From: an uncultured marine group I thaumarchaeote
GTDB lineage: Archaea > Thermoproteota > Nitrososphaeria > Nitrososphaerales > Nitrosopumilaceae
Direction of reading: 5' to 3'
NCBI GenBank assembly: GCA_902606965.1
Contig: CACLIK010000004.1
Coordinates: 1-49,146 of the forward strand
Length of the DNA stretch: 49,146 nucleotides
Shown: positions 17,251 to 48,521 of the stretch, piece after piece
How the letters are laid out: each line of letters begins with the position of its first letter
Numbering within the stretch: the first letter of the stretch is position 1
Translations under genes and position numbers: made by a program
The notes under the pieces: model-generated
The model's input: the letters and a program-made list of their open reading frames with translations, nothing else
Told to the model about the DNA's origin: nothing
The model's database searches: none

Positions 17251-18141
17251 TCAATTAAGATCCATTTTTTTAACTTCTTCTTCAACAAAAGATTCGTGAT
17301 CTCTAATCTTATGCATTCCCTGTAATTTGAAAAGATCATCCATTGAAGCTAATTTTGTCTCCAAGTCGTCAAGACTTTTGATCTTTGACATTTGTTTAAC
17401 AACATCAGATATCGCAGAAAATGCTGCTAACGTAGTTTGATGTGCAAATACAACCATTTTCACTCCACGAGATTTTAATTCATCCAAAGTTACTGTGGGA
17501 AATGCTGTTGGGACAGACATTATTGGTATTTTTCCTTTCCATTTTTTGTAAAATTCGAAAATTTCAGCAGGATCTTTTTTTCGTGCATGAACGAAAATGA
17601 TATCAGCTCCAGCCTTCTCATACGTGTTAGCCCTATCTAACGCTTCTTCCACTCCTAAATCAGCAATCAATGCCTCAGTTCTGGCTATAATTACAAAATT
17701 ACTATCCTTTTTTGCATTTTTTGCAGCTACCAACTTTGCCACAAAATCTTTTTTAGAAATCATTTCTTGTTTTCCATCTTTAAACAAACTATTTTGTTTT
17801 GGAAATGTTTTATCTTCAATACATATACCACCTATGCCAGCGTTTTCAAATTTTTTTACTAAATGAGCCACATTACTAGGTCCACCATAGCCCGTATCAC
17901 AATCCGCAATTACTGGAATGTCACATGCTTCCGCCATGAATGTAACTGCATCTAAAAGTTCAGTCATAGTAAGTATACCAGCATCAGGTAGCGCTCTTGT
18001 TGAAGCTATACCAAAACCACTTGCCCAAATAGCATCAAAACCATTCATTTCTGCAAGTTTTGCAGACATAACATCAAATGCACCACAAACTTTTACAAAT
18101 TGTTTTTCCTGCATTTTCTTCATAAGATCATTTTTAGGCAT
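17251..18141 (-). CDS. pepM: Phosphoenolpyruvate phosphomutase (phosphonate biosynthesis)
   Basis: Converts PEP to phosphonopyruvate, the C-P bond-forming entry step to phosphonates. The diagnostic motif IEDKTFPKQNS (residues 108-118) separates PEP mutase from isocitrate lyase relatives. From memory of the Mytilus enzyme, D58, D85, D87, E114, K120, N122, S123, R159 and H190 all have counterparts here at a constant offset of five: D53, D80, D82, E109, K115, N117, S118, R154, H185. So it should be active. The start at ATG 18141 is decided by a strong Shine-Dalgarno; GTG 18153 lies inside that site. It sits between a sugar epimerase and an aminotransferase. No phosphonopyruvate decarboxylase is visible in the window. 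Confidence 0.93.
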   Translation of the reverse strand: MPKNDLMKKMQEKQFVKVCGAFDVMSAKLAEMNGFDAIWASGFGIASTRALPDAGILTMTELLDAVTFMAEACDIPVIADCDTGYGGPSNVAHLVKKFENAGIGGICIEDKTFPKQNSLFKDGKQEMISKKDFVAKLVAAKNAKKDSNFVIIARTEALIADLGVEEALDRANTYEKAGADIIFVHARKKDPAEIFEFYKKWKGKIPIMSVPTAFPTVTLDELKSRGVKMVVFAHQTTLAAFSAISDVVKQMSKIKSLDDLETKLASMDDLFKLQGMHKIRDHESFVEEEVKKMDLN

Positions 18142-18150
18142 ATGGGAATA

Positions 18151-18159
18151 CACCTCCTT
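18151..18159 (-). promoter_or_regulatory. Strong Shine-Dalgarno site of pepM
   Basis: Read on the minus strand, AAGGAGGTG ends 9 nt before the ATG at 18141. It is nearly fully complementary to the 16S rRNA tail and fixes the start. Most genes around it show no such site. Confidence 0.75.
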
Positions 18160-24198: not shown

Positions 24199-25851
24199 TT
24201 ACTCATCACTAGTATCTAATACTTCATTTAACCGTTGGATTCCAATACTATAGAATGCTAATTGGCGTTCAAAATGATCCTTGTGTAATGGTAACATTGA
24301 GATGAATAGCAATCCCTCAATTAGCTTTATTTTATTTAAATTCCATCGACTTTGAATTAATTCATCTAGGTATCTACAAATCTGTTGATGGTTTTTTGGT
24401 TCAAAAACTTTCATAGACACATGATTATTTTCAATTAATGATGCAGTGTACAAACCATTAACAATTGTGTCAAATCCACCTACTAGAGAATGACGCAATT
24501 TTGCCACATCATATTTCACATCACCAAACATAGTACTGCCCCATTTACCTCTAGGATCAATTAATTTGAAATCTTTACTTTTAAAATCACAAAAAACATT
24601 TGAGAAACATAAATCACCATGTATCAAGCAATTATCGTCTTCATGATGCAGATCATGTATTCGTAATTCAATATCTTCCTTAATCGCTGGCCAATTGCGA
24701 TATTTTTTTCCATTAATTAACAGAACATCTGTCGTTAATATTTTGTTAAATAATTCATTTGAATCAGTTAATTGATTTAATCGTTCTTCTGTTTTTGTTT
24801 TGTAAATAAGATCATAATCATCAACAGTAACTATTCCAGAATGTTTTTTGAATTGATTTAAAATTTCAAATAGTTCATCTAACACTTCCATCCAAAGTTT
24901 TGTGGAGAAATCACTGTATAACCAGAGTTCAGCTAATGTTGGGTATTTGATATATTCAAGTTTTAGAAATGGGTTTTTTGATTGATCAGTATCTATAATC
25001 TTGGGTGTTAGTCTAGATAAACTATCAGGAATTTTTAGGTACCATTCAATTTCATTAATTAATTTTGTAATATTTTGACTTGTTTTAGTAACAATCTTAG
25101 ATTCACGATCAAATTTTAATGAATTAAAATATCTAGCCTTTAGAAACATCTGTTTAGACACAAAATAATTTTCTACATGACCAGCATCATACCACTCATT
25201 GCATATTTCTGTTGAAATTGTTTTTTTCTTTTTGTATTTTTTAATTAAATCACTAATTTCTATGCGTTCCTGTCCATTAAATTCTGTACGTCTATGTTTC
25301 AATGATTCTAGATCATCAAAGTAGTACACACCAACTAATGCATATTGTTCATTAGTTTTCTGCAAATCTTTTTCTTTATCAAAAATTAAGTCTAATTTTC
25401 CATCCTTAGATGTTACTACACACCAGTTTGCCGGTCTTTCAAAATTATCTGACATTAGGACAAAACTATTATTGTTTTGAATAAGATTAGAAAGGTCATT
25501 TTCGACAAGTGTGTCACCTAAAATTACAAGAAGTTGTTGTTCTTCTATTTTCTCAATTGCAGTTAAAATTGAATTTCCAGGAGGTTTTTCAAAATCAGTA
25601 GTTATGAAATTTACCTTTATTTGATCCTCATATTGTTCTGAAATAATTTTTTCCAAGATTTCTTTTTTGAAACCGGTTGTTATTGATATTTTTTTGAATC
25701 CATCCTTCAATAATTTATCAATAATTCTAAAAATAGCAGGTTTTCCGTGTAACGGAATTAATCCAGATGGAATACTTCCAAAAATACTTTCTAATTCTTT
25801 TTCAATTTTACCTGCACTTAATATCAGTACATGAATGTTATCGTAATTCAA
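24199..25851 (-). CDS. Bifunctional nucleotidyltransferase-like / choline-kinase-like (APH) fusion
   Basis: A 550-aa fusion. Residues 1-235 have a sugar-nucleotidyltransferase fold: VLILSAG, PSGLIPLHGKPAIFRII, VILGDTLVEND (Asp113) and WYDAGHVENYF. The usual GxGxR loop after the first strand is missing, so this half may be degenerate or specialised. Residues 260-550 are an aminoglycoside/choline-kinase fold: Brenner motif HGDLCFSN (His411, Asp413, Asn418) and the metal Asp432 in IDPRG. The order matches LicC-LicA fusions that make CDP-choline, so a nucleotide-activated small alcohol or sugar phosphate is a fair guess. TTG start overlaps the upstream stop (TTGA), with GAAAGG just upstream as a weak ribosome site. 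Confidence 0.75.
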   Translation of the reverse strand: MNYDNIHVLILSAGKIEKELESIFGSIPSGLIPLHGKPAIFRIIDKLLKDGFKKISITTGFKKEILEKIISEQYEDQIKVNFITTDFEKPPGNSILTAIEKIEEQQLLVILGDTLVENDLSNLIQNNNSFVLMSDNFERPANWCVVTSKDGKLDLIFDKEKDLQKTNEQYALVGVYYFDDLESLKHRRTEFNGQERIEISDLIKKYKKKKTISTEICNEWYDAGHVENYFVSKQMFLKARYFNSLKFDRESKIVTKTSQNITKLINEIEWYLKIPDSLSRLTPKIIDTDQSKNPFLKLEYIKYPTLAELWLYSDFSTKLWMEVLDELFEILNQFKKHSGIVTVDDYDLIYKTKTEERLNQLTDSNELFNKILTTDVLLINGKKYRNWPAIKEDIELRIHDLHHEDDNCLIHGDLCFSNVFCDFKSKDFKLIDPRGKWGSTMFGDVKYDVAKLRHSLVGGFDTIVNGLYTASLIENNHVSMKVFEPKNHQQICRYLDELIQSRWNLNKIKLIEGLLFISMLPLHKDHFERQLAFYSIGIQRLNEVLDTSDE

Positions 25852-26930
25852 TCCGAGCGCCTTTCAAAGTTTTCAATATCCCCTGGTGTTCCTAATAGAG
25901 AGAAATCATCAGCTAAATCAATCACAAATTTTTTTCCTTGCTTGATTAAAATATTGTATAATTCGGAAACATAGTATTCATTATTAGTTTTTGAGTTATT
26001 TGACAGCATCAATTCTGCAGCATTGACAAAATCTTTACCCCTAGTGAATACGTATAATCCAGTAGACGCAATATTAGAAATTGCTTCTTTTTCCTTCGTT
26101 CTTTTAACAAATTCAGAATCTAATTCAATGAAACTTAGCTTGCTATCATGAGAATTAATGGCACCCAATAATCCATCTATATTTGTATTTTTTATAGTAA
26201 GCAGTTTTGATTTTAAACGCGTTGATTCAAAATATGTATCAATATTATAGATCACTAAGGAAGATTCATTATTGATATATTTTTTTGCATGTAATACAGT
26301 TTCTACTTGTCCATCAGTAGTTTTATCTAAAAGTATTATCTCATAATTCAAACTGGGAAATTTTTTTTCCATGTTTTTTTTAATGAAATTTTTAACTTCA
26401 TATTTTTTTTCATGTTCGTCTAAACAAATGAAGATAACCTTACTAGCAATATCTAACGGTAAACTTCTTACTGACCATTCAAATAAAGTTCGTCCCTTAG
26501 TTTCAATTAGAAATTTTGGTTTAAGAATACCTTGATCTTTAAACCTTTGTCCTTTTCCAGCCATTGGAATAACAAAAATTGGTTCAATCTCTTTCATTTT
26601 CTTTTCAAGTTGTTTTACAGATGAGAATGTAATACCTAAATCATCAATGTAAACATCTCCATATGGTTTACCATAATGAATTTCATCAAATTGGACATCC
26701 CATTTTTTTAACCATTCAGAGGTTACAGGACCAATTTTTTTAATTACTTCTTCAACATTTCCATCGCAAGTTTTCATATGTCTTCCAGTATGAATAATCA
26801 AATAATGACCATCTTTTTTCCATTCTCTCATTTTTGATATAACATCCTCATTTGGTTGCACTTCAAGGTATGTCTCGTTTGGTTTTTTCAATGAACAGAT
26901 CACTCCATCTAAGTCAAGTACTATTCGCAT
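25848..26930 (-). CDS. Bifunctional HAD phosphatase / nucleotidyltransferase
   Basis: Start at ATG 26930 (MRIVLDLDGVIC); a GTG at 26945 would add five residues. Residues 1-112 are a small HAD domain of the capsule-locus type: DLDGV with Asp6 and Asp8, HTGRH near 47-51 and DVYIDDLG near 92-99. Residues 116-360 are a nucleotidyltransferase with an intact loop PMAGKGQRF (Gly125-Arg129), LKPKFLIE and NIDTYF as the metal site. It likely removes one phosphate and activates a sugar-1-phosphate or similar, acting with the fusion that overlaps it by 4 nt. HAD plus nucleotidyltransferase pairs recall the heptose route, but no heptose isomerase is visible. Confidence 0.78.
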   Translation of the reverse strand: MRIVLDLDGVICSLKKPNETYLEVQPNEDVISKMREWKKDGHYLIIHTGRHMKTCDGNVEEVIKKIGPVTSEWLKKWDVQFDEIHYGKPYGDVYIDDLGITFSSVKQLEKKMKEIEPIFVIPMAGKGQRFKDQGILKPKFLIETKGRTLFEWSVRSLPLDIASKVIFICLDEHEKKYEVKNFIKKNMEKKFPSLNYEIILLDKTTDGQVETVLHAKKYINNESSLVIYNIDTYFESTRLKSKLLTIKNTNIDGLLGAINSHDSKLSFIELDSEFVKRTKEKEAISNIASTGLYVFTRGKDFVNAAELMLSNNSKTNNEYYVSELYNILIKQGKKFVIDLADDFSLLGTPGDIENFERRSD

Positions 26931-27041
26931 TCTATCACTAGTCACAAATCAAATTTAGGTCAAAAAAACCTTTAGAAGTAAAGCTCCGTATTGAAGCATA
27001 GATATCTTTAGATTAATCTAGCGTGGATTTCACCATATTAT

Positions 27042-27995
27042 ATGAAAATTATGATAACCGGTGGTATGGGTTTCATTGGAAGTCACTTATCTGAACAACT
27101 ACTTATCGAGAAACACAACTTGGTTATTCTTACGAAGAGTTTTGTTAAAAAACATAATATCACTAATATTTCCAAAAAAATTAAAATAGAAAAAATTGAT
27201 GTAACTAATTTTAAAAAACTTAGTCAAAGTATACAAAAAAATAAACCTGATGTTATTATTCATTTAGCTGGACAAACATCACACTCACAATCTTTTGAAA
27301 AACCACTGAATGATGTTGATTCTAATACTAAATCAACTTTATTCATTTTAGAGGAAATTAGAAAAAAGAAATTAAAATGTAGATTTATTCTAGGTAGTAC
27401 ATTCGTTGTAATTGGTCGTCCAGAAAAACTTCCTGTAGATGAAAGAACTACCTGCTTGCCAACTATGATTTATGGTGTAAATAGATTGGCAAGTGAATAT
27501 TATTGTAAAATATACCATGAGGTTTATGGCATTGATACTGTAGTATTTCGAATAACAAATTCTTTCGGTCCAAAGGAACAGGTTGTATCAAATAAAAACG
27601 CAGTAAACTTTTTGATACATCAAGCTTTCTTAGGAAAGACTATAACAATTTTCAAAAAGGGTAAATTTTTCCGAGATCTGATTTACATTTCGGACGTAGT
27701 TTCGGGCATTAAAATAATAATGAAAAAAGGAAAGTCGGGAGAATTGTATTGGATTTCTTCTGGTAGAAAAACCTGGTTTCATAACTTAGGAAAATCACTA
27801 GAGAAATTGACTGGTACTAAAGTAAAATTTGTCAAAGAACCCAATTATACAAAGAAAGTAGATGTAGGAAACTTTGTGGTTAATAATTCAAAATTAAGGT
27901 TACTTGGATGGAAACCTAAAATTAGTTTGGACCAAGGAATTAAAGAAACTCTGGAATATTTTAAATCAAAAAAATCGATTAATTATTTTCTGTAA
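27042..27995 (+). CDS. Extended SDR (NDP-sugar epimerase/reductase-like) with altered catalytic motif
   Basis: A 317-aa SDR. The Rossmann loop TGGMGFIG is intact at residues 6-13, as are HLAGQTSHSQSF and FRITNSFGPKE. The catalytic motif reads YGVNR (Tyr144, Arg148) where YxxxK is expected, and the strand before it is STFVVIG rather than SSxxVYG. Lysine to arginine at this site usually harms catalysis, so the protein may be a slow, specialised or binding-only member. ATG start. It stands between minus-strand genes, and its 3' end overlaps the deacetylase gene by 17 nt. Confidence 0.78.
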   Translation: MKIMITGGMGFIGSHLSEQLLIEKHNLVILTKSFVKKHNITNISKKIKIEKIDVTNFKKLSQSIQKNKPDVIIHLAGQTSHSQSFEKPLNDVDSNTKSTLFILEEIRKKKLKCRFILGSTFVVIGRPEKLPVDERTTCLPTMIYGVNRLASEYYCKIYHEVYGIDTVVFRITNSFGPKEQVVSNKNAVNFLIHQAFLGKTITIFKKGKFFRDLIYISDVVSGIKIIMKKGKSGELYWISSGRKTWFHNLGKSLEKLTGTKVKFVKEPNYTKKVDVGNFVVNNSKLRLLGWKPKISLDQGIKETLEYFKSKKSINYFL

Positions 27996-28812
27996 TATAA
28001 CGACTAAATGAAGTAAACTCGAATGATTTGAGTAGTTCTGACATTCTAGAATAGGCTTTGGATAAATTATGATATGTGGCAAATTTATCTTTGAATGGTA
28101 AATTCAGTTTTGGCATGAACTCAGGTGTTAGTTCCCAAGAATGAATGTAGAAACTTCCTGGTATGTTTTTATTTTGATAATCTTTAAGTGCATTTTTTAT
28201 GACTTTAATCGGTAGTGTTCTGAGATAGAATCCACCTGCGGCAGGAATTTTCTTACCTAGAAATGTTGTAACCAATAAAGGAAATTCAGTTAATTTTCCA
28301 GAAGAATCATTTTTGTCAATGGAGTTACTTGTAATTTTATATGGTTTATGCTCCGCATGTGGTGAACCATACAAACTAGTTTTAGCAGGAACAATACTGC
28401 TATCATATATGTAATTATTTTCTTCCAAAATATCAATCGCCCATGAGCTAAAATTATTTAATGAAAATGTTGGAGCCCTAAAACCTCGTGACTTACCATT
28501 TGTTAATTTTTCAAATTTTTTAACTTCATCAGAAAACTTTTCTTTAAAACCAGGTGAATCTAATCTATTATGATACATGGTATGAAATCCAATTTCGTGA
28601 TCATTCTCAATAATTTTATCAAGAATATCAGGTTGAATTTCTAATAATTCACCTACCACAAAAAATGTTGCAGACGTTTCATGTTTTCTTAGCAAATCCA
28701 GTATTTTGTCAATACCATTAATAACCGAAGGATCATGTTTTTCATTTTTAATATTTTGTTTAATTAATTCTGGATGGTACCACTCTTCAAAATCAATTCC
28801 TAAAATATTCAA
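27979..28812 (-). CDS. Polysaccharide deacetylase (NodB-fold, DUF3473-type)
   Basis: A 277-aa carbohydrate esterase 4-type enzyme. It begins with NILGIDFEEWYHPE, has the NodB-fold strands ATFFVVGELLE and NDHEIGFHTMYHN (metal histidines near residue 97), RGFRAPTFS and GSFYIHSWEL near the C-terminus. The family removes N-acetyl groups from amino sugars in polysaccharides or lipid-linked precursors; no signal peptide is visible, so it should act in the cytoplasm on a precursor. TTG start, which fits the first strand exactly. The acyltransferase gene is 9 nt upstream, suggesting deacetylation followed by transfer of another acyl group. Confidence 0.86.
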   Translation of the reverse strand: MNILGIDFEEWYHPELIKQNIKNEKHDPSVINGIDKILDLLRKHETSATFFVVGELLEIQPDILDKIIENDHEIGFHTMYHNRLDSPGFKEKFSDEVKKFEKLTNGKSRGFRAPTFSLNNFSSWAIDILEENNYIYDSSIVPAKTSLYGSPHAEHKPYKITSNSIDKNDSSGKLTEFPLLVTTFLGKKIPAAGGFYLRTLPIKVIKNALKDYQNKNIPGSFYIHSWELTPEFMPKLNLPFKDKFATYHNLSKAYSRMSELLKSFEFTSFSRYITENN

Positions 28813-28821
28813 TTTACCCTT

Positions 28822-29355
28822 TTAACGATTGATTTTTTTTACTACTCTTGCTGGATTTCCTACAGCAACGCAATAGTCAGGAATATCTTGAACTACAACA
28901 CTTCTTGGTGAAATTATAGAATTTTCACCTATTGTAACTCCTGCAATAACTATAGCACCAGGATTAATTACTGCACCAGATTTTATGTTTACTTTTTCTA
29001 TCTTTCTTGGATATTCTCCATTTTTTAAAAATAAATTTGCAGATGGATTGCTATGAGCAAAGATCATTGAGTGTGAACCTAAAGTAACATTATCACCGAT
29101 ATTTACTAATTCAGGATAGATTAGATCAATTAGAACATAGGGATTAAAATGACAATTACGGCCAATTTTTACACCTCGCATTTTTTGCATTTTTACAGCA
29201 AATCCTGAACTAGGGGTTGAATATGCAATAGAATGTAAAATCCAACTTCGCAAAAATTTTATCTTAAATTTTAAGCTGCCAAATCTTCCTGAATATCCAT
29301 AATACTCCATTACCTCTTTCTCATTTATTGGAAAGGGATTATCATCTTCAGTCAT
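28822..29355 (-). CDS. Left-handed beta-helix (hexapeptide) acyltransferase, WbbJ-like
   Basis: A 177-aa O- or N-acyltransferase of the LbH family. Hexapeptide turns run from about residue 65: RGVKIGRNCHFNPY, ELVNIGDNVTLGS, the catalytic-histidine region MIFAHSN, then INPGAIVIAGVTIGENSIIS and CVAVGNPARVV. The standard donor is acetyl-CoA. It is divergent from the FkbH-ACP operon and cotranscribed with a deacetylase, so an ACP-bound acyl group is a tempting donor; that is inference. ATG start at 29355; a second ATG at residue 16 is possible. Confidence 0.85.
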   Translation of the reverse strand: MTEDDNPFPINEKEVMEYYGYSGRFGSLKFKIKFLRSWILHSIAYSTPSSGFAVKMQKMRGVKIGRNCHFNPYVLIDLIYPELVNIGDNVTLGSHSMIFAHSNPSANLFLKNGEYPRKIEKVNIKSGAVINPGAIVIAGVTIGENSIISPRSVVVQDIPDYCVAVGNPARVVKKINR

Positions 29356-29466: not shown

Positions 29467-31212
29467 TTGGAAAGAAAATTATCAGAATACATCTCACTTT
29501 CACAAACTATTGATGTATCTAAATCTAGCAAAAAAATTAAAGTTGGAATATTATCTAGTTTTACGATTAATGGATTGAGCGAAACTTTAACTGTAAAATG
29601 TTCAGAATTAGATATTCAATGTAAAACCTATGTTGCCGGATATAACCAATATAATCAAGAGATTTTAGATTCGAAATCCAAACTTTACTCATTTTCACCA
29701 GATATTACATTTCTAATTATCGATATACGCACATTATTGAATAAAATATTCCACCATCCATATTCTATTTCTTCATCAGAGCGTAAAAAAATTGTAAACG
29801 AAAAGATTAGTGAATTAGGTAATTTGATTCTACAATTTAAAAAGAATTGTAGTTCTAAATTAATTATATCTAATTTTTCTTTGCCTTCCTATTCTCCAGG
29901 TGGTTTGATTGAAACAAAATCTGAATTTGGATTTCATGATATGATCAATGAAATAAATCAAGGACTTTCTAAAATTATAAAGGACGAATCTTCTGTTTAT
30001 GTTTACAATTTTAATCAATTTGTTTCTAAATTTGGTGAAAAGAATATTTTTGATTACAGACAGTTTTTCATAGGAGATATCAAAATTGCATTTGATTATA
30101 TTCCATATTTAGCTAATGACTTGATGGGTTATGTCAAGCCCATGTTAGGTCTTAATAAAAAATGCATAGTTCTTGATTTAGATAATACGTTATGGGGCGG
30201 CATTGTTGGTGAGGATGAATTTGATGGAATTGAACTTGGGCAATCATCAAATGGTAAGGCATTTGTTGAATTTCAAAAGCATCTTTTGTCTCTTTGGCAA
30301 CAAGGAATTATTCTAGCAATAAACAGTAAAAATAATTTTGAAGATGCAATTAAGGTTATCAAAGAACATCCAGATATGATTTTAAGAGAAGAACATTTTG
30401 CAAGCTTACAGATTAATTGGAATGATAAGGCACAAAATCTCAAAGCGATTTCTGAAGAACTAAACATTGGTCTTGGTAGTATTGTATATTTTGACGATGA
30501 TCCAGTTAATCAAGAGAGAATTAAACAGGAAATACCTGAAGTTTTAACCGTAGAATTACCAAAGGATCCGTCTCAATATACAGACATTCTAATGAGTTTA
30601 AATGATTTTAACGTCTTACAGAAAACTGATGAGGATCTAAAAAGAGGTAAAATGTATTCTCAACAAAGACAAAGATCAGAATTAGAGCAATCTGCAAAGA
30701 GCATTGATGATTTCTTAAAACAACTAAATATTAAAGTCAAAATAAAAAAAGCAGACAAATTTACTATACCAAGAATTTCGCAACTAACTCTAAAAACCAA
30801 TCAATTTAACCTCACAACAAAGCGATATCAGGAAGAAGACATTAACAAATTTTCAAGTGATAATAATATGATTGTGGGATGTGCACAAATCGAAGATAAA
30901 TTTGGGGATAGTGGCATTACAAATGCCTTCATAATTGAAAAAAATGATAAGGAATGGAAAATTGATACATTTCTGCTCAGCTGTAGAGTGATTGGTAGAG
31001 GAATTGAAGATGCTATAATCTCTTATATTTTAAAAGAAGCAAAGAATCAAGGCGTAGAAAAGATCAGGGCAGATTTTATTCCAACCAAAAAAAATAATCC
31101 TGCTGAATCATTCTTACCTAATTATGGATTCAAAAAGGAAAATGAATATTGGGTATATGACCTGAAGGATTCAATAAAAACTCCTTCTCATTTACTATTG
31201 GAGGTAGAATGA
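29467..31212 (+). CDS. FkbH-like glyceryl-ACP-forming HAD enzyme
   Basis: A 581-aa protein of the FkbH family, which in methoxymalonyl-ACP pathways takes the glyceryl group of 1,3-bisphosphoglycerate, removes the phosphate and loads it on an acyl carrier protein. Residues 1-225 are the SGNH-like N-terminal region. The HAD motif VLDLDNTLWGG has Asp237 as nucleophile and Asp239 as acid, then INSKNN and VYFDDDPVNQ. The C-terminus (about 430-560) is GNAT-like. TTG start. Its stop overlaps the ACP gene, which puts its expected partner in the same operon. Glyceryl is the known chemistry of the family; the real acyl group here is untested. Confidence 0.88.
   Translation: MERKLSEYISLSQTIDVSKSSKKIKVGILSSFTINGLSETLTVKCSELDIQCKTYVAGYNQYNQEILDSKSKLYSFSPDITFLIIDIRTLLNKIFHHPYSISSSERKKIVNEKISELGNLILQFKKNCSSKLIISNFSLPSYSPGGLIETKSEFGFHDMINEINQGLSKIIKDESSVYVYNFNQFVSKFGEKNIFDYRQFFIGDIKIAFDYIPYLANDLMGYVKPMLGLNKKCIVLDLDNTLWGGIVGEDEFDGIELGQSSNGKAFVEFQKHLLSLWQQGIILAINSKNNFEDAIKVIKEHPDMILREEHFASLQINWNDKAQNLKAISEELNIGLGSIVYFDDDPVNQERIKQEIPEVLTVELPKDPSQYTDILMSLNDFNVLQKTDEDLKRGKMYSQQRQRSELEQSAKSIDDFLKQLNIKVKIKKADKFTIPRISQLTLKTNQFNLTTKRYQEEDINKFSSDNNMIVGCAQIEDKFGDSGITNAFIIEKNDKEWKIDTFLLSCRVIGRGIEDAIISYILKEAKNQGVEKIRADFIPTKKNNPAESFLPNYGFKKENEYWVYDLKDSIKTPSHLLLEVE
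31200..31205 (+). promoter_or_regulatory. Ribosome binding site of the ACP gene
   Basis: GGAGGT lies inside the end of the FkbH gene. It is 6 nt before the second of two consecutive ATGs (31212) and only 3 nt before the first (31209), which favours 31212 as start. Confidence 0.6.
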
Positions 31213-31451
31213 TGTCCAAAAAACTTTATGATATTATTTCGAAAGTATTTTCCATCCAAATATCAGAAATAAATGATGAATCTAGCCCAGAAACAATTGA
31301 ATCTTGGGATTCCTTTAATGGATTAATTTTAGTTGATGAACTTGAAAATAGTTTCAATATTAAATTCTCAATATCAGAAATAATTGATGTTAAAAATGTG
31401 AAAGACATTAAAAGACATCTAAAAAATCATGGAGTTGATTTGAATGACTGA
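31212..31451 (+). CDS. Acyl carrier protein
   Basis: A 79-aa four-helix carrier protein. Ser34 in ESWDSFNGL matches the DSL-type attachment site for 4'-phosphopantetheine, here DSF. Flanking helices (KLYDIISKVF, ILVDELENSF, VKDIKRHLKNHG) and the acidic character are typical. It overlaps the FkbH stop and the MaoC start, so it is translationally coupled to both. Archaea do not normally make ACP for lipids, so this is a dedicated carrier for the operon. The gene holds the whole protein; an alternative ATG at 31209 adds one Met. Confidence 0.9.
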   Translation: MSKKLYDIISKVFSIQISEINDESSPETIESWDSFNGLILVDELENSFNIKFSISEIIDVKNVKDIKRHLKNHGVDLND

Positions 31452-31875
31452 AAAACCATCAGAATATTCTTTTGACGAAATCGAATTAGGTATGCAAAAA
31501 AGCTTCAAAGTTGATATCTCAAAAAATATGTTGGATGCATTTGGACGTGATACAGGAGATCATAATCCATTACATATGAGCGAAGAATATGCTTCTTCAA
31601 CTTCTTTTAAAAAAAGAGTTTGTAGTGGGATGTTTTTGTCCTCATTTTTCTCTAGACTAGTTGGTATGTATTTACCAGGCAAACATGCGCTTCACATATC
31701 TCAATCCTTGAATTTTGTCAATCCATGCTTTATCGGCGAAACGATCACTGTTGGAGGTAAAGTTATTGACAAAAGTCCTGCCACTAAAATCATCAAATTA
31801 GAAACTACAATTACTAATGAGTCAGGTAAGAGAATTATTGATGGAAATGCACAAGTAATTGTTAGAGATGATTGA
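31444..31875 (+). CDS. MaoC-like (R)-enoyl hydratase/dehydratase, hot-dog fold
   Basis: A 143-aa single hot-dog protein of the PhaJ/MaoC type, which adds or removes water across a 2-enoyl thioester. The catalytic signature is TGDHNPLH with Asp39 and His44, the same spacing as in (R)-specific enoyl-CoA hydratase, and FxxxxxSGMFL and LNFVNPCFIGETI follow. The start ATG lies 8 nt before the end of the ACP stop. In this operon the substrate is likely an acyl-ACP, for example dehydration of the glyceryl or a 3-hydroxyacyl unit; that is inference. Confidence 0.88.
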   Translation: MTEKPSEYSFDEIELGMQKSFKVDISKNMLDAFGRDTGDHNPLHMSEEYASSTSFKKRVCSGMFLSSFFSRLVGMYLPGKHALHISQSLNFVNPCFIGETITVGGKVIDKSPATKIIKLETTITNESGKRIIDGNAQVIVRDD

Positions 31876-32221
31876 AAATTTAGGAGTAGGAATAGATATT
31901 ATTGAAGTATCACGTTTTAGAAGAAAAAAATATGAAGAAAACAGGAATTTTTATAAAAAAATCTTTGTTAAATCAGAACTCGATTATTGTCTAAAATTTA
32001 AAAATTCAGCCGAACGGTTTGCAGGAAAATTTGCAATTAAGGAGGCAGTGATAAAATCAATATCAGAAAAAATCAGATTTCTTGATATAGAAACATCTCA
32101 TTTAAAATCAAAACCCATAGTAAGAATAAAAAAATCTCGAGAAAAATACAATTTCATTGCTTCACTTTCTCATGAAAATGATTTTGCTGTTGCAGTAGTC
32201 ATCTCAGAGAAAATCAAATAA
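31868..32221 (+). CDS. acpS: Holo-[acyl carrier protein] synthase
   Basis: A 117-aa AcpS-type phosphopantetheinyl transferase that moves 4'-phosphopantetheine from CoA to the serine of ACP. GVGIDIIEVSRF has the metal Asp10, and RFAGKFAIKEAVIK has Glu59, the second metal ligand. AcpS-size length and both motifs are intact. The start is set at ATG 31868, which overlaps the MaoC stop by 8 nt; TTG 31859 would add three residues. Its 3' end overlaps the convergent GT2 by 8 nt. An ACP plus its own activating enzyme in one operon makes the carrier system self-contained. Confidence 0.9.
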   Translation: MIENLGVGIDIIEVSRFRRKKYEENRNFYKKIFVKSELDYCLKFKNSAERFAGKFAIKEAVIKSISEKIRFLDIETSHLKSKPIVRIKKSREKYNFIASLSHENDFAVAVVISEKIK

Positions 32222-33254
32222 TTTTCTTTTTTACTTTTTTGCTTAATTTTGATAAAACTGAATTGAATGATCCATTCATAAAATTATCTGAAACATTTGT
32301 CGGTACAAAAATCTCATCAGGGAATTCTTGAATTAGCTTTTCATCTGGAACTATTTTTTTCTTTTCTAATTCTTGATATTTTGCTTCAATGAATTTTCTA
32401 TTTCTTCTAATATCTAATTCTGCTTTGATTTTTGCGCCTAGAAATCCCTTTGATATGTAAAAAAACCAAACAAAAAGATCTACCAAGCACAATGAAGAGT
32501 ACATTTTTGCATACGTGTTTTTAGAATAGTGAGTTAAAAGACAGTATTTTCTATTTCTTTCTAACCAATAGAATTTTTTTGCAGACCATTTCAGTGAATA
32601 ACTTTCAACATGATAAATTTTTGATTTTGGAACATAGTATGAATTTATTCCAATTTGTGATGCTCTCCAACCTAAATCTAAATCATCATGATATAAAAAA
32701 AGAAAAGAATCTAGCAATCCAACTTTATCCAAAACATTTCTTGAGGTAAACAAACATGTCCCTGACGCATAGCCAATTTTTTTAATTTTTTCATCAATCT
32801 CCTCATCTTTTTTACCTTTGTCTTTTGCAAAACCAAATCCAAAAACATGCAACATATTTCCAGTGCTCTGTAAAACTTGTTTTTCATTCAATGAAAGAAT
32901 TTTTGGTTGGTATAATCCCTCTCCAAATTTATTATATGCAGAAAGTAATTCTTCAATCCAATTAGATTCTACAATTGTATCAGGGTTAAGAATTATAATG
33001 TAATCTCCTTTCGCTTCTCTGATTCCAATATTATTTCCTTCACAATATCCAAAGTTTTTATCATTTTGAATTAATTTTATGTCTGGATATTTTTCTTTAC
33101 ACATTTTTTGACTTTTATCAGTTGAAATATTATCAACCACAATAATCTCTAAGTTTTTGTATATTGATTTTTTGATAGACTCTATACAATTTAGTAATAA
33201 CTCTCCTGCATTATAGTTCAATACTACTACACTAATTAACGGGTTTTCATTCAT
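32214..33254 (-). CDS. Glycosyltransferase family 2, rhamnosyltransferase-like
   Basis: A 346-aa GT-A enzyme. VVVLNYNAGELLLNCIES at the N-terminus, VVDNISTDKSQKM near residue 38, NFGYCEGNNIGI, and ILNPDTIVESNWI near 92 as the metal site. FLYHDDLDLGWRASQ near 190 is the acceptor/base motif seen in rhamnosyl and dTDP-sugar transferases. No membrane helix except a short hydrophobic patch near 255. It is upstream-coupled to no gene but lies 52 nt after rmlA and rmlB on the same strand, so use of an RmlA/B-derived dTDP-sugar is plausible. Confidence 0.85.
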   Translation of the reverse strand: MNENPLISVVVLNYNAGELLLNCIESIKKSIYKNLEIIVVDNISTDKSQKMCKEKYPDIKLIQNDKNFGYCEGNNIGIREAKGDYIIILNPDTIVESNWIEELLSAYNKFGEGLYQPKILSLNEKQVLQSTGNMLHVFGFGFAKDKGKKDEEIDEKIKKIGYASGTCLFTSRNVLDKVGLLDSFLFLYHDDLDLGWRASQIGINSYYVPKSKIYHVESYSLKWSAKKFYWLERNRKYCLLTHYSKNTYAKMYSSLCLVDLFVWFFYISKGFLGAKIKAELDIRRNRKFIEAKYQELEKKKIVPDEKLIQEFPDEIFVPTNVSDNFMNGSFNSVLSKLSKKVKKKII

Positions 33255-33306: not shown

Positions 33307-34287
33307 TTACAAAGTAATTTTTGTCCCTTCCCCAAGTAAGAAAACTTTCTTAGTTTTATCTTTATTATTACCATGTAGATGGCAATTTGCTGAAATTATA
33401 CTATCTTTGATGTTTAAACCACCATCTATTTTACAACCAGACATTATTATGGAATTTTCTATAACAACATCAGATGATATTATTGTATCATCACCTATGC
33501 TTACATTACGGCCAATCAGAGCAGATTCGTCAATCTTACAGTTTTTACCAATTATAGATCCTGTTTGGTTACAAATATTCTCCAACACTTGTCTATTTGC
33601 ATTTAAAATATCCTCTGGAGTACCAGTATCTTTCCAGTAATCTGTTATTATTTCGTAACCAATATTGTCATTTTGTTTTAATAAATTATCTAACGCATCT
33701 GTTATCTCTAATTCATTTCTCCAGGATGGTTTCAAATTATCTATGACTTCAAAAATTTGTGGAGTTAACAAGTAAATACCAGTTACTGCTAGATTTGATG
33801 CTGGTTTTTTTGGTTTTTCTGTGATTTTTACAATCTTTTCATTTTCAACATCCGCAATTCCAAATCTACTTGGGTTATCTACTTCACATAACAAAACTGT
33901 GGCATCATAATCTGATTTGGTAAAATTTTCTACAAAACCTGTGATGGATTTTTGTATAATATTATCTCCTAGAAAAACAAGAAATTTTTCATTATTGATA
34001 AATTCCTTGCATAATCTAATTGCATGTGCAATTCCTCTAGGCTCATCCTGTTCAATGTATGTAAGATTTACACCAAAGTTTTCTCCATTTCCATAATACT
34101 CTCTAACTTTGTTTGCACCTAGACCACCTATGATGATAGCAATATCTGTAATATCAGCATCACGAATTGATTCAATACAATATTGCGACATGGGTTTGTT
34201 CGCTATTGGTAAAAGTTGTTTTGGACCAGTATGGGTTAGTGGTCTTAATCTCGTTCCATGTCCACCATGAAGAATAATTCCTTTCAT
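33307..34287 (-). CDS. rmlA: Glucose-1-phosphate thymidylyltransferase
   Basis: Makes dTDP-glucose from dTTP and glucose-1-phosphate. The start at ATG 34287 gives MKGIILHGGHGTRLRPLTH, the canonical N-terminus; GTG 34305 or ATG 34302 are less likely. Residues 1-235 are the catalytic domain, with FLGDNI near 110 and DYWKDTGTPEDIL near 222. A C-terminal left-handed beta-helix tail (IGKNCKIDESALIGRNV onward) marks the long archaeal type, 326 aa. It follows rmlB by 30 nt on the same strand. Confidence 0.93.
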   Translation of the reverse strand: MKGIILHGGHGTRLRPLTHTGPKQLLPIANKPMSQYCIESIRDADITDIAIIIGGLGANKVREYYGNGENFGVNLTYIEQDEPRGIAHAIRLCKEFINNEKFLVFLGDNIIQKSITGFVENFTKSDYDATVLLCEVDNPSRFGIADVENEKIVKITEKPKKPASNLAVTGIYLLTPQIFEVIDNLKPSWRNELEITDALDNLLKQNDNIGYEIITDYWKDTGTPEDILNANRQVLENICNQTGSIIGKNCKIDESALIGRNVSIGDDTIISSDVVIENSIIMSGCKIDGGLNIKDSIISANCHLHGNNKDKTKKVFLLGEGTKITL

Positions 34288-34317
34288 TTTAATCACAGAC
34301 ATCACATAAAATTAAAT

Positions 34318-35304
34318 CTAATTTTTCCAAGGCGTTGGATCTAATATTTCAGGTGGAAGATTTTTCCATAGTTCTTCGTGATCTAGATACCATTTCACAG
34401 TTTTTTCAATGCCTTCTTCAAAGCTAATTTTTGGTTTCCATCCTAATTCTTTGGAAATTTTCTTTGAACTCATACTATATCTAAAGTCATGACCAGGTCT
34501 GTCTTCTACATATTCAATCAAATCCTCCGACATTCCCATAATACCTAATATCGTCTTTACAATTGTGATGTTATTAATTTCATTATTACCAGAAATATTA
34601 TACGACTGTCCAGATTTACCATCTAAAAGTGATGACATAATTCCATCGCAGTGATCACCAACATGAATCCAATCTCTGATATTTTTACCCTTTCCATAAA
34701 TTGGAATTTTTTGTTTTTGTCTTGCTAAAATAATTGCTTTAGGAATCAGTTTCTCAGGAAATTGTCTTGGACCATAATTATTAGTACATCTAGTAATTAT
34801 TACATCAGAATCATATGTAACAGAATATGAATTTATTAGAAGTTCAGCTGCTGCCTTAGTTGCAGCATATGGACTAGATGGGTTAAATTTTGATTCTTCA
34901 GTAGCTGTATCAGATGATAAACTACCAAATACTTCATCAGTCGAAATTTGTATCATACGTTTTTTTTGTTTAGTTACTATATCGAGAATAGTAAATGCAC
35001 CTCTAATATTAGATACTAGAAATGGATTTGCATCACTTATACTACGATCAACAAAAGATTCTGCGGCAAAATTTACAACTGCATCACATTTAGTGATGAT
35101 TTTTTCCATAACTGGTTTGTTTGTAATATTCGCTTTTACAAATTCATATTTTTTATTATCCTGAATTTCAGATAAATTAGCTTTGTTTGAACCATATAAT
35201 TCTGCATCCACATTAATTATCTCAAAATCATTTGATTCCTTTAACAAGTTTGAAATAAAATTACTTCCAATAAACCCAAGTCCACCAGTAACAAGTAATT
35301 TCAT
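34318..35304 (-). CDS. rmlB: dTDP-glucose 4,6-dehydratase
   Basis: Converts dTDP-glucose to dTDP-4-keto-6-deoxyglucose. It is a textbook RmlB: TGGLGFIGSN at residues 6-15, NFAAESFVDRSI, the triad in STDEVFG (Thr122, Asp123, Glu124), YAATK (Tyr146, Lys150), RCTNNYGPRQFPEKLIP, and RDWIHVGDHC. Full length at 328 aa, ATG start. It leads the rmlB-rmlA-GT2 run. No RmlD is visible in the window, so the end product need not be rhamnose. Confidence 0.95.
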   Translation of the reverse strand: MKLLVTGGLGFIGSNFISNLLKESNDFEIINVDAELYGSNKANLSEIQDNKKYEFVKANITNKPVMEKIITKCDAVVNFAAESFVDRSISDANPFLVSNIRGAFTILDIVTKQKKRMIQISTDEVFGSLSSDTATEESKFNPSSPYAATKAAAELLINSYSVTYDSDVIITRCTNNYGPRQFPEKLIPKAIILARQKQKIPIYGKGKNIRDWIHVGDHCDGIMSSLLDGKSGQSYNISGNNEINNITIVKTILGIMGMSEDLIEYVEDRPGHDFRYSMSSKKISKELGWKPKISFEEGIEKTVKWYLDHEELWKNLPPEILDPTPWKN

Positions 35305-35401: not shown

Positions 35402-35863
35402 GTGGAGAACAAAAATTTTTCTGTATGGGATTTAGAAAAGCATGAAACCAAAGATATCATAGATTCTCACATCAACGGCGAATTAACAGTAATTTGGAGG
35501 GATTGGGATAATCTTATCAAAAATCATCCCAAAATGGTTTATGTAAACTCTGTAAATCCAGAAGAAATTAAGGGTCCACATATTCATAAAAACAGAACTA
35601 CTTATTTTTCCTGCATTAATGGCACTGTAGTTTTGGTTATTCAAGATAATGATGGAAAATTTCATGAGATAAAAGCTGATTCAGATAAACCAAGTTTAAT
35701 TGAGGTATCAAATGGAATAGCGGCAGCAATTGTAAATCCTACAGCAGATGTTGCGCAAGTATTAGTTTTAGCTGACATTGCGTGGAAACCAAATGATAAC
35801 GAAATGCAGAATGTTTCATTCAACAATTACGATTGGAATAAGTGGAAAAAAATTAACAGTTAG
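35402..35863 (+). CDS. RmlC-like cupin, dTDP-4-keto-6-deoxysugar epimerase/isomerase candidate
   Basis: A 153-aa single-domain cupin. VIWRDWDNLIKNHPKMVYVNSV leads into GPHIHKNRTTYFSCINGTVVLVI (about residues 59-81), which holds the first cupin motif with paired histidines, then DIAWKPNDNEMQN near the C-terminus, a phrase shared with dTDP-4-dehydrorhamnose 3,5-epimerase-like and WxcM-type proteins. It could be a 3,5-epimerase or a 3,4-ketoisomerase working on the RmlB product; sequence alone does not decide. GTG start. It is divergent from rmlB with a 97-nt promoter gap. Confidence 0.75.
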   Translation: MENKNFSVWDLEKHETKDIIDSHINGELTVIWRDWDNLIKNHPKMVYVNSVNPEEIKGPHIHKNRTTYFSCINGTVVLVIQDNDGKFHEIKADSDKPSLIEVSNGIAAAIVNPTADVAQVLVLADIAWKPNDNEMQNVSFNNYDWNKWKKINS

Positions 35864-37766: not shown

Positions 37767-38583
37767 TGATAGAATAGATTGCATAATACAAGCAAGGATG
37801 GGATCCTCTAGGTTACCTGGTAAAGTTATGAGTAAAGCAGATAATGAAAATACTGTTTTAGATTATCTCATTAACCAATTAAGACATTCTAAGCTTATTA
37901 AGAAAATAATCATTGCTACAACCACAAACAAACAGGATGATCTAATAGTAGAATCTGCTAAAAAAAATCAGGTTGAATTTTTTCGTGGGGAGGAGAATGA
38001 TGTATTGGACAGATACTATCAGTGCGCAAAAAAATTTTCGTTAACAGATATTCTACGAATAACATCAGATGATCCACTTGTTGATCCTACAATAATAGAT
38101 GATCTAATTAGAAATTATCAGAAAACTAATTGTGATCTTGTATCTATAGAAACTAGTGTAGAAAATAACATAAACAGTGATAGATCTAAAAATTTATCCG
38201 GATATCCATATCCTATAGGATTAAACGCACAGATTTTCTCATTCATTGCATTAGAAAAAACATGGAATGATGCAAAGTTGCCTTCTGAACGTGAACATGT
38301 TTCACCATACATGATGAAAAATTCAGATGAATTTAGACAATTTCATCTAAGGAATCCAATCAAAATACCTCCACTTAGATTAACAATTGATAAGAAAGAG
38401 GATTTAGAATTATTTAGAAATATAATATCTAAAATTTCTGAACGTCCAATACTATTACATCATATTTTAGAACTTTATAGTAATGAGCCTAAGCTCTTTG
38501 AAACCAATATTCACATAGATCCATTAGAGGGATACAATAAATCAATTAAATATGATGAAGAATTTTCAGATAAAAAATACTAG
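37759..38583 (+). CDS. SpsF/NeuA-like cytidylyltransferase, apparent CTG start
   Basis: Activates a nonulosonic-type acid or related sugar as a nucleotide derivative. The family opens with a strand and loop IxCIIQARMGSxRLPGK. Here that whole sequence is present in frame (codons from 37774), but the first ATG (37798) lies inside it, at the Met of ARMGSSRLPGK, and would delete the first strand. The only start-like codon upstream after the in-frame stop at 37750 is CTG 37759, preceded by GGTGA and overlapping the previous stop by 8 nt. RITSDDPLVDP near residue 105 is the metal site. Converges on the NeuB-like gene. Confidence 0.78.
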   Translation: MNDDRIDCIIQARMGSSRLPGKVMSKADNENTVLDYLINQLRHSKLIKKIIIATTTNKQDDLIVESAKKNQVEFFRGEENDVLDRYYQCAKKFSLTDILRITSDDPLVDPTIIDDLIRNYQKTNCDLVSIETSVENNINSDRSKNLSGYPYPIGLNAQIFSFIALEKTWNDAKLPSEREHVSPYMMKNSDEFRQFHLRNPIKIPPLRLTIDKKEDLELFRNIISKISERPILLHHILELYSNEPKLFETNIHIDPLEGYNKSIKYDEEFSDKKY

Positions 38584-39311
38584 AATTTCATTTTTTCTAT
38601 ATTTCTAATATGGCGTACAAGTTGTTTAAATTCATCTATATCAATTGACGACGATGCATCAGGTCCTTTTGAATTCTTTAATTTTACGTGCTTTTCAATA
38701 ATTATATTTTTTGCATTTTTTTGTTTTTTTAATATGGAAAAAATAATTGGAGCAATTATACCTAGAGTATGATCAGAAAATCCATCATAGTCAATTACTT
38801 TTTTCCAGTTTATTTTTTCGAATGGTGTTGGATACTCAGAAATACAATAACAAAATATGATGTTGTTTTTTGCAAATAATTTTTTAATTTTTTCTTTATT
38901 ACCCCCCATTCCCATACTAATAATCACTGGCTTTTTTGTCAATGATTTTTTTTTCAATGTTTCACGTGAAAAGGGGTCTTTAAATAAACATGTTCTAGAT
39001 GCAATTTTATATTTTTTAACATTCAATGATTCCAAGAAATCAACAGCTTCTGGATAAAAAGCACTGGCAAAGAATTCTATTCCGTGTTTATCAGAATATT
39101 CTTTGATTTTACGAGCCTTATCAAACGTCAGTTCAGATTTTTTAATATTTTCCCAATTTGGATGTGTTGTATTATAAAGATCCTTAGCCCTCCATATCTG
39201 AAATTTAACAGCATCTGCACCAACCTGTTTGCATTCAGAAACAATTTTTTTAGCCTTAGTTACACTTCCTTCCCAATTAGAACCAATCTCCGCTATAATC
39301 TTTATTTTCAT
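38580..39311 (-). CDS. NeuB/SpsE-type nonulosonic acid synthase, short form
   Basis: A 243-aa barrel enzyme of the sialic-acid-synthase family, which condenses PEP with an N-acylated amino sugar. IIAEIGSNWEGSVTKAK near residue 5, GADAVKFQIW near 31, FFASAFYPEAVDFLESL, YKIASRT, VIISMGMGG, YPTPFEKINWKK, DGFSDHTLGI and IIEKHVKL are in family order. The C-terminal SAF (antifreeze-like) domain of full NeuB proteins (about 350 aa) is absent. The stop overlaps the SpsF-like stop by 4 nt, linking the two convergently. Substrate unknown. Confidence 0.82.
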   Translation of the reverse strand: MKIKIIAEIGSNWEGSVTKAKKIVSECKQVGADAVKFQIWRAKDLYNTTHPNWENIKKSELTFDKARKIKEYSDKHGIEFFASAFYPEAVDFLESLNVKKYKIASRTCLFKDPFSRETLKKKSLTKKPVIISMGMGGNKEKIKKLFAKNNIIFCYCISEYPTPFEKINWKKVIDYDGFSDHTLGIIAPIIFSILKKQKNAKNIIIEKHVKLKNSKGPDASSSIDIDEFKQLVRHIRNIEKMKF

Positions 39312-47696: not shown

Positions 47697-48521
47697 TCAT
47701 CCTCTAAGTTTTTTCTTCACTGGTATTTCTGAATCCCACACTCGTTTTTTACCATCTCCCATTATAGCTTCTACACCATTGACATCTCTAACCATTCTTT
47801 CTAATCCACCAGGTTCTAATGATGCTGCTTGATCTGAACCATACATAGTTCTGTCTAAAGTAATATGCCGTTCTAATGAAGTTGCTCCAAGAGTAACTGC
47901 AATTAATGAGACTCTATAAGCACCAATTTCATGTCCACTATATCCTACATTACATCCAAATTCTTTCTTTAACATTGGAATGCATAAGAGATTTGCTTCT
48001 TCAATTTTCATTGGATATGAGCTATTTGTATGCATCAATTCAAAGGGACAACTATATTCTCTAAAGATATTTACTGCATTGCTAATTTCTTCCATAGTAC
48101 TCATACCAGTTGAAATGAATGTTTGTTTTTTTTCTTTAGCCACAGTTTTTAACAATTCATTATTTGTTAGCATCGCAGAAGCGATTTTATTATATTTCAA
48201 ATCATATTGGTGTAGAAATGATTGGCTATCTAGATCCCATGATGATGCAAACCAATCTATATCATAAAGTAGACAATGTTTATTGATCTCATCATATTCT
48301 TTTTTCCCAAATTCTAATCCTAGTTTCTGATCACGATTTGTATTTCCCCATGGACTTTCTCTTGGAGAATCTAGAACATCTTTAGAATAAACTTTTTCAA
48401 TTGTTCTTTTTTGAAACTTAACTGCATTACAGCCTGTTTTTTTTGCTATCTCTATTAGCTTTTTTGCAATTTCCAAGTCTCCATTATGGTTAATACCAAT
48501 TTCTGCGATAACGAATACCAT
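47697..48521 (-). CDS. neuB: N-acetylneuraminate synthase-family enzyme (NeuB-type) without SAF domain
   Basis: A 274-aa PEP-dependent nonulosonic acid synthase. VIAEIGINHNGDLEIAKKL near residue 4, CNAVKFQKRT near 31, YNKIASAMLTN, TFISTGMSTMEEI, MHTNSSYP, NVGYSGHEIGA and SLERHITLDRTMYGSDQAASLEP are all in place, covering the barrel and its metal and substrate ligands. It stops just where the C-terminal SAF domain begins in full-length NeuB (about 350 aa), ending PVKKKLRG. ATG start. It follows an SDR on the same strand, as in legionaminic/sialic acid gene sets. Confidence 0.9.
   Translation of the reverse strand: MVFVIAEIGINHNGDLEIAKKLIEIAKKTGCNAVKFQKRTIEKVYSKDVLDSPRESPWGNTNRDQKLGLEFGKKEYDEINKHCLLYDIDWFASSWDLDSQSFLHQYDLKYNKIASAMLTNNELLKTVAKEKKQTFISTGMSTMEEISNAVNIFREYSCPFELMHTNSSYPMKIEEANLLCIPMLKKEFGCNVGYSGHEIGAYRVSLIAVTLGATSLERHITLDRTMYGSDQAASLEPGGLERMVRDVNGVEAIMGDGKKRVWDSEIPVKKKLRG

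Follow-up and report, generated by a model that had tools for sequence, protein, structure and literature searches.

An acyl carrier protein cassette, apparently dedicated to surface glycans, in ammonia-oxidising archaea

Described acyl-supply systems and the archaeal cassette

Sugar acylation supplied by an acyl carrier protein (ACP) is already known, and what is new here is the archaeal setting and the swappable loaders. Nod-factor N-acylation relies on the deacetylase NodB, the acyltransferase NodA and the ACP NodF. The pathway that we propose would share with it a deacetylation followed by an ACP-dependent N-acylation, but would differ by an acyltransferase of an unrelated family and by a short C3 acyl group in place of a fatty acyl group; its deacetylase scores 46 bits against the NodB model TIGR04243, below the cut-off of 240. 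In the O-antigen wfp genes of Flavobacterium psychrophilum, wfpD encodes an ACP and wfpG a PglD-type acyltransferase, with a ketoacyl-ACP reductase alongside. As in the cassette, the ACP of this glycan locus is predicted to supply an acyl group, there to a PglD-type sugar N-acyltransferase. The wfp system is bacterial, and its acyl chain is predicted to arise through ketosynthases; the paper names no FkbH, and the part of the account cited here describes no deacetylase (PMC6519341).

FkbH gives glyceryl-ACP in described pathways (PMC7489565, PMC8949500). In the tetronate and methoxymalonyl-ACP pathways this FkbH/ACP glyceryl supply is destined for a polyketide (PMC7489565), whereas the cassette lies in a glycan locus with an acyltransferase, a deacetylase and a GT2-type glycosyltransferase. 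Both operons were rejected as identities for the cassette because required genes are missing: it contains no FabH-like gene of the tetronate glycerate-utilisation operon, ketosynthase-profile matches being weak, and it has MaoC and AcpS instead of the two dehydrogenases and the O-methyltransferase of the methoxymalonyl-ACP operon. Two Nitrospina loci (L089, L098) hold FkbH, ACP, MaoC, SDR, a hexapeptide enzyme, GT2 and a deacetylase as in the archaea, but their deacetylase is an unrelated PIG-L protein, their gene order is different and no AcpS is present in the stretch read. Our literature search found no published account of FkbH in glycan loci, and no genes assigned to a glyceroyl-derived sugar amide (pyruvoyl, lactoyl or inverted glyceroyl). 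Archaea mostly lack ACP and the enzymes that process it (PMC3533463).

The four-gene cassette and its archaeal origin

The stretch of DNA analysed here (the window, 49,146 nucleotides) comes from an uncultured marine group I thaumarchaeote of the Nitrosopumilaceae. The cassette consists of four genes:

29467..31212, plus strand: FkbH-type HAD/acyltransferase, predicted loader (TIGR01686, PF21211; DxD and Ser-Cys-Arg motifs)
31209..31451, plus strand: ACP (PF00550; carrier serine Ser35 in WDSF)
31444..31875, plus strand: MaoC-type (R)-hydratase/dehydratase, proposed tailoring enzyme on the ACP-bound C3 unit (PF01575; PDB 5cpg)
31868..32221, plus strand: AcpS holo-ACP synthase (PF01648, TIGR00556; earlier call from TTG 31859)

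The preliminary description of four intact genes with overlapping ends and intact catalytic motifs holds. Stops and starts overlap, with ATGA at the FkbH-ACP junction, and curated models are matched above their cut-offs: FkbH belongs to its family (TIGR01686, 321.8 bits, cut-off 146.65), the ACP matches PP-binding PF00550 (22.3 bits, cut-off 20.8), MaoC matches PF01575 (60.5 bits, cut-off 27) and AcpS belongs to the ACPS superfamily (PF01648, 53.2 bits, cut-off 25). For AcpS we claim superfamily and not equivalog status, since it scores 53.3 bits against the NCBIfam equivalog TIGR00516, below the cut-off of 59.8. The coordinates first given for FkbH, ACP and MaoC were retained, whereas the AcpS start was revised: ATG 31868 is more likely than TTG 31859 because the corresponding methionine begins most homologues. 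The nearest PDB entries are 3slr for FkbH and, for MaoC, 5cpg, an (R)-specific enoyl-CoA hydratase (E 2e-23).

The key residues are conserved across related loci. This is the case for D237/D239, K321, D343/D344 and Ser505-Cys506-Arg507 of FkbH (the DxD and Ser-Cys-Arg motifs being conserved in 22 archaeal homologues), for the metal-binding Asp13 and Glu62 and the Lys66 of AcpS and for Gly38-Asp39, Pro42 and His44 of MaoC; Ser35 of the ACP is conserved in 26 homologues. In the source assembly (733 kb, 63% complete, 0% estimated contamination), the sole AcpS and the sole PF00550 match are both cassette genes. Likewise, in a single-contig genome that is 99% complete (G025), the only AcpS and the only ACP match lie within the cassette.

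MaoC and FabG-like families also function in fatty-acid synthesis, and the ACP could on this account carry a longer or condensed, fatty-acid or polyketide-like chain. We regard this as very improbable: the cassette holds no ketosynthase, and the best ketosynthase-profile match in the 63%-complete assembly reaches 18.8 bits, below cut-off, a level of match also found in archaeal control genomes. Type II fatty-acid synthesis is thus disfavoured.

The scarcity of ACP and AcpS in archaea, where they have been ascribed to transfer (PMC3533463), might speak for bacterial contamination of the assembly. However, the cassette is carried by single-cell genomes (AC-665-F20, AC-647-G13, AG-319-N20), by Nitrosotenuis chungbukensis MY2 and by single-contig genomes. 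Moreover, FkbH proteins of archaeal loci form one clade in our tree, separate from a long-branched Heimdallarchaeal sequence, and the GC content of FkbH (0.29) equals that of the window (0.30). The gene order, which the preliminary description proposed to look for in other thaumarchaeal genomes, recurs in many independent ones, which excludes a chance alignment of unrelated genes. The likelihood of contamination or chance alignment is in our view negligible and, judged from the genomes that carry it, many of them of Nitrosopumilaceae, the cassette is native to ammonia-oxidising archaea, where a single conserved block holds it in most cases.

Among 101 relatives, 18 have an AcpS; for the phylum the figure is 40 of 398 genomes and for the family, by Pfam search, at least 43 of 250, a lower bound because this last search missed two full-cassette loci (L175, L180). 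Three AcpS matches in the family (G567, G568, G578) have no cassette genes around them and probably represent transferases of another kind. One FkbH that is nested among the archaeal ones in the tree comes from a contig labelled Nitrospina sp. SP265 (L084); this contig is probably archaeal and misbinned.

A conserved slot with exchangeable loaders

The cassette is flanked in the window by the following genes:

27042..27995, plus strand: NAD-dependent sugar epimerase/dehydratase (PF16363/PF01370), on the deacetylase side and at the same place in many loci
27979..28812, minus strand: NodB-family/DUF3473 polysaccharide deacetylase, which would free the amine for acylation (PF01522, PF11959)
28822..29355, minus strand: hexapeptide acyltransferase with a left-handed beta-helix, the putative transferase on the acceptor side (PF00132, fold, His101)
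32214..33254, minus strand: GT2-type glycosyltransferase (NCBIfam glycosyltransferase matches below cut-off; adjoins AcpS in most loci)
33307..34305, minus strand: RmlA-type glucose-1-phosphate thymidylyltransferase (TIGR01208, 365 bits, over cut-off)
34318..35304, minus strand: RmlB-type dTDP-glucose 4,6-dehydratase (TIGR01181, 425 bits, over cut-off)
35402..35863, plus strand: FdtA-type sugar 3,4-ketoisomerase, a cupin (PF05523, 58.4 bits; a frequent, not universal, neighbour)

In most loci read, the deacetylase and the hexapeptide enzyme diverge from the cassette, and GT2, RmlA and RmlB lie beyond its other side. Between these flanks the genes differ: FkbH-ACP-MaoC-AcpS, that set plus an SDR (ketoreductase; L034, and L151 in another order), FkbH-ACP-VOC-AcpS, or ACP and an AMP-ligase with AcpS. 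The nearest solved relatives of the VOC protein include methylmalonyl-CoA epimerases, and VOC genes near FkbH also occur in Acidobacteria and Lentisphaerae. Nitrososphaerales loci lack a third gene: they have FkbH, ACP and AcpS, next to a NodB-type deacetylase and a hexapeptide enzyme. In the loci read, MaoC accompanies FkbH loaders and never ligase loaders, an association that points to the product of FkbH as its substrate. This comparison shows the loader to be an interchangeable element of a conserved slot, and comparative genomics backs the earlier proposal that the archaeal glycan locus has an ACP system of its own. The preliminary description had noticed neither this interchangeability nor the varying third gene (MaoC, VOC, MaoC with SDR), nor that GT2 and RmlA/RmlB/FdtA are part of the block.

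Some loci have further genes. One genome (G018), which also encodes FkbH, has a second ACP locus with ACP, VOC, AMP-ligase and formyltransferase beside AcpS (L029, 7493-11846). In another (G005; L026, 12007-14694), a second ACP, an MBOAT and an unassigned protein adjoin the FkbH cassette, perhaps as a second acyl-transfer route. In L155 (G324) and L160 (G461), FkbH is spread over several reading frames through decay or sequencing errors.

The link first suggested between the cassette, the hexapeptide enzyme and the deacetylase is strengthened by co-occurrence. In 61 family genomes the three sets are nested, AcpS (17) within the hexapeptide enzyme (19) within the deacetylase (20), all 17 AcpS genomes having both partners (Fisher p 3e-13 and 2e-12, uncorrected for relatedness). 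One hexapeptide match with internal stops (G067) was left out of these counts. In both genomes with the hexapeptide enzyme but no AcpS, the contig breaks off next to the hexapeptide gene, and G035 is the one genome of this set with the deacetylase alone. Family-wide, 34 of the 43 AcpS genomes have a deacetylase match (p 2e-25, shared ancestry uncorrected). Nine genomes are deacetylase-positive and AcpS-negative: two do carry the whole cassette (G169, G608), three stop at a contig edge (G007, G022, G597), one is 54% complete (G538), one has only a divergent deacetylase (G565), and in two (G035, G566) the place between the deacetylase and GT2 is taken by a GNAT-type protein. In some AcpS-positive genomes (G059, G245, G388, G481, G564) a distance of at least 13 kb separates the deacetylase from AcpS, and one, with FkbH in pieces, has no deacetylase (G324).

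In G035 and G566, which belong to different genera, the single GNAT-type protein replaces both the cassette and the hexapeptide enzyme while the deacetylase and GT2 are kept; in G608, of the same genus as G035, this slot holds the complete cassette together with the hexapeptide enzyme. Such an arrangement is expected if the cassette and hexapeptide enzyme equal one acyltransferase step after the deacetylase. We count it as supporting evidence and no more, since the 70% identity between the two GNAT proteins means that one swap, spread by transfer, may explain both. Altogether, nested co-occurrence and the conserved block support a functional link between the cassette, the hexapeptide enzyme and the deacetylase.

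Proposed acyl transfer and its alternatives

We consider it probable that the cassette is a swappable acyl-supply module, in which an FkbH-derived C3 acid would pass through the hexapeptide enzyme to a deacetylated sugar amine in the glycan. AcpS would prime the ACP, as expected of its family, and FkbH would form glyceryl-S-ACP from 1,3-bisphosphoglycerate, as do characterised FkbH proteins. The C3 unit on the ACP would then be the substrate of MaoC, in the simplest case with loss of water to give 2-hydroxyacryloyl/pyruvoyl-ACP. This is the least certain step of the chemistry. To our knowledge, no dehydrated glyceryl group is known on a glycan, which counts against the proposal, as does the absence of an SDR gene beside MaoC in the window. 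In SDR-bearing loci a ketoreductase step may lead toward lactoyl, and in VOC loci the epimerase-like protein found in place of MaoC may lead toward the other glyceroyl enantiomer. The deacetylase would expose the amine of an N-acetylated sugar, the divergent hexapeptide enzyme would transfer the acyl group from the ACP to it, and the neighbouring GT2 would then use or extend the acylated product. We infer the acyl identity, the N- or O-linkage, the sugar and every chemical step from the protein families.

The deacetylase belongs to the NodB family (PF01522, 55 bits, with the metal-binding H77-T78-x-x-H81 conserved), and its HTxxH and RAP motifs are conserved across related loci; it is not of the XrtA-system type by TIGR03006 (188.4 bits, cut-off 276.2). 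The hexapeptide enzyme is a left-handed beta-helix acyltransferase, over the PF00132 cut-off and with an invariant His101. However, a QdtC/PglD-type N-acyltransferase identity was not borne out, its nearest sequences and folds being maltose/galactoside O-acetyltransferases: the model (pLDDT 92.7) aligns with these at a TM of about 0.7, and at about 0.45 with the N-acyltransferase AntD. The acyl group might thus be an O-ester on a hydroxyl, made by this enzyme or by the MBOAT proteins encoded in four loci (L026, L112, L153, L174). We hold this to be improbable, since a deacetylase adjoining the acyltransferase would then be hard to explain, and most loci have no MBOAT within the stretch read.

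A more serious alternative concerns the acceptor, which could be a nucleotide-linked amino sugar made de novo by RmlA, RmlB, FdtA and a DegT-type aminotransferase and acylated as by QdtC/FdtC, the deacetylase acting elsewhere in the glycan. RmlA and RmlB exceed their cut-offs, FdtA lies beside the cassette and DegT-type aminotransferases are also encoded within the window, which would provide an acceptor without need of a deacetylase; in addition, the hexapeptide enzyme has weaker matches to QdtC and to a WxcM-like protein. We regard this explanation as a serious rival, though an unlikely one. RmlA, RmlB and FdtA are not near the cassette in L030, L036 and the Nitrososphaerales loci, where the deacetylase is present. 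Moreover, the deacetylase is the tightest co-occurring partner and adjoins the GNAT-type protein in the replacement loci, and even the Nitrospina set includes a deacetylase, though an unrelated one.

When loci are labelled by acyl type, the labels cluster on the hexapeptide enzyme tree (p 0.011) and the GT2 tree (p 0.015), as well as on those of AcpS and ACP, and do not cluster on those of the deacetylase (p 0.80), RmlA (0.34) or RmlB (0.37). That the deacetylase tree does not track acyl type is in keeping with the amino-sugar alternative. The clustering fits acyl recognition by the transferase and GT2; we do not accept it as proof of acyltransferase specificity, because both genes flank the cassette and physical linkage is an equal explanation.

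Further genes lie elsewhere in the window. Two NeuB-family genes (38580-39311 and 47697-48521, minus strand) suggest nonulosonic acid synthesis in the same region. Also on the minus strand are a nucleotidyltransferase with an extra EcbF/BcbF-like phosphatase part (25848-26945) and another with, by eye, a C-terminal kinase-like part (24199-25851). The translation of 17251-18153 (minus strand) holds EDKTFPKQNS, which resembles the phosphoenolpyruvate mutase signature EDKxxxxxNS and may mark a phosphonate gene in this surface-glycan locus.

What recurs in ammonia-oxidising archaea is a pathway with a single ACP that seems to be dedicated to surface glycans. As a tentative extension of the acyl-supply module favoured here, Nitrosopumilaceae may vary the surface glycan by swapping whole modules of FkbH, AMP-ligase or GNAT type at a fixed position next to the deacetylase; the FkbH versions would then attach to a sugar an amide derived from glyceroyl, be it pyruvoyl, lactoyl or inverted glyceroyl. 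The Tannerella forsythia gene responsible for the glyceroyl group of pseudaminic acid was reported to be elusive (PMC6120980), and the cassette is a candidate for the kind of system that donates N-glyceroyl groups to glycans. A fixed slot with exchangeable loaders offers a directly testable model of surface diversification.
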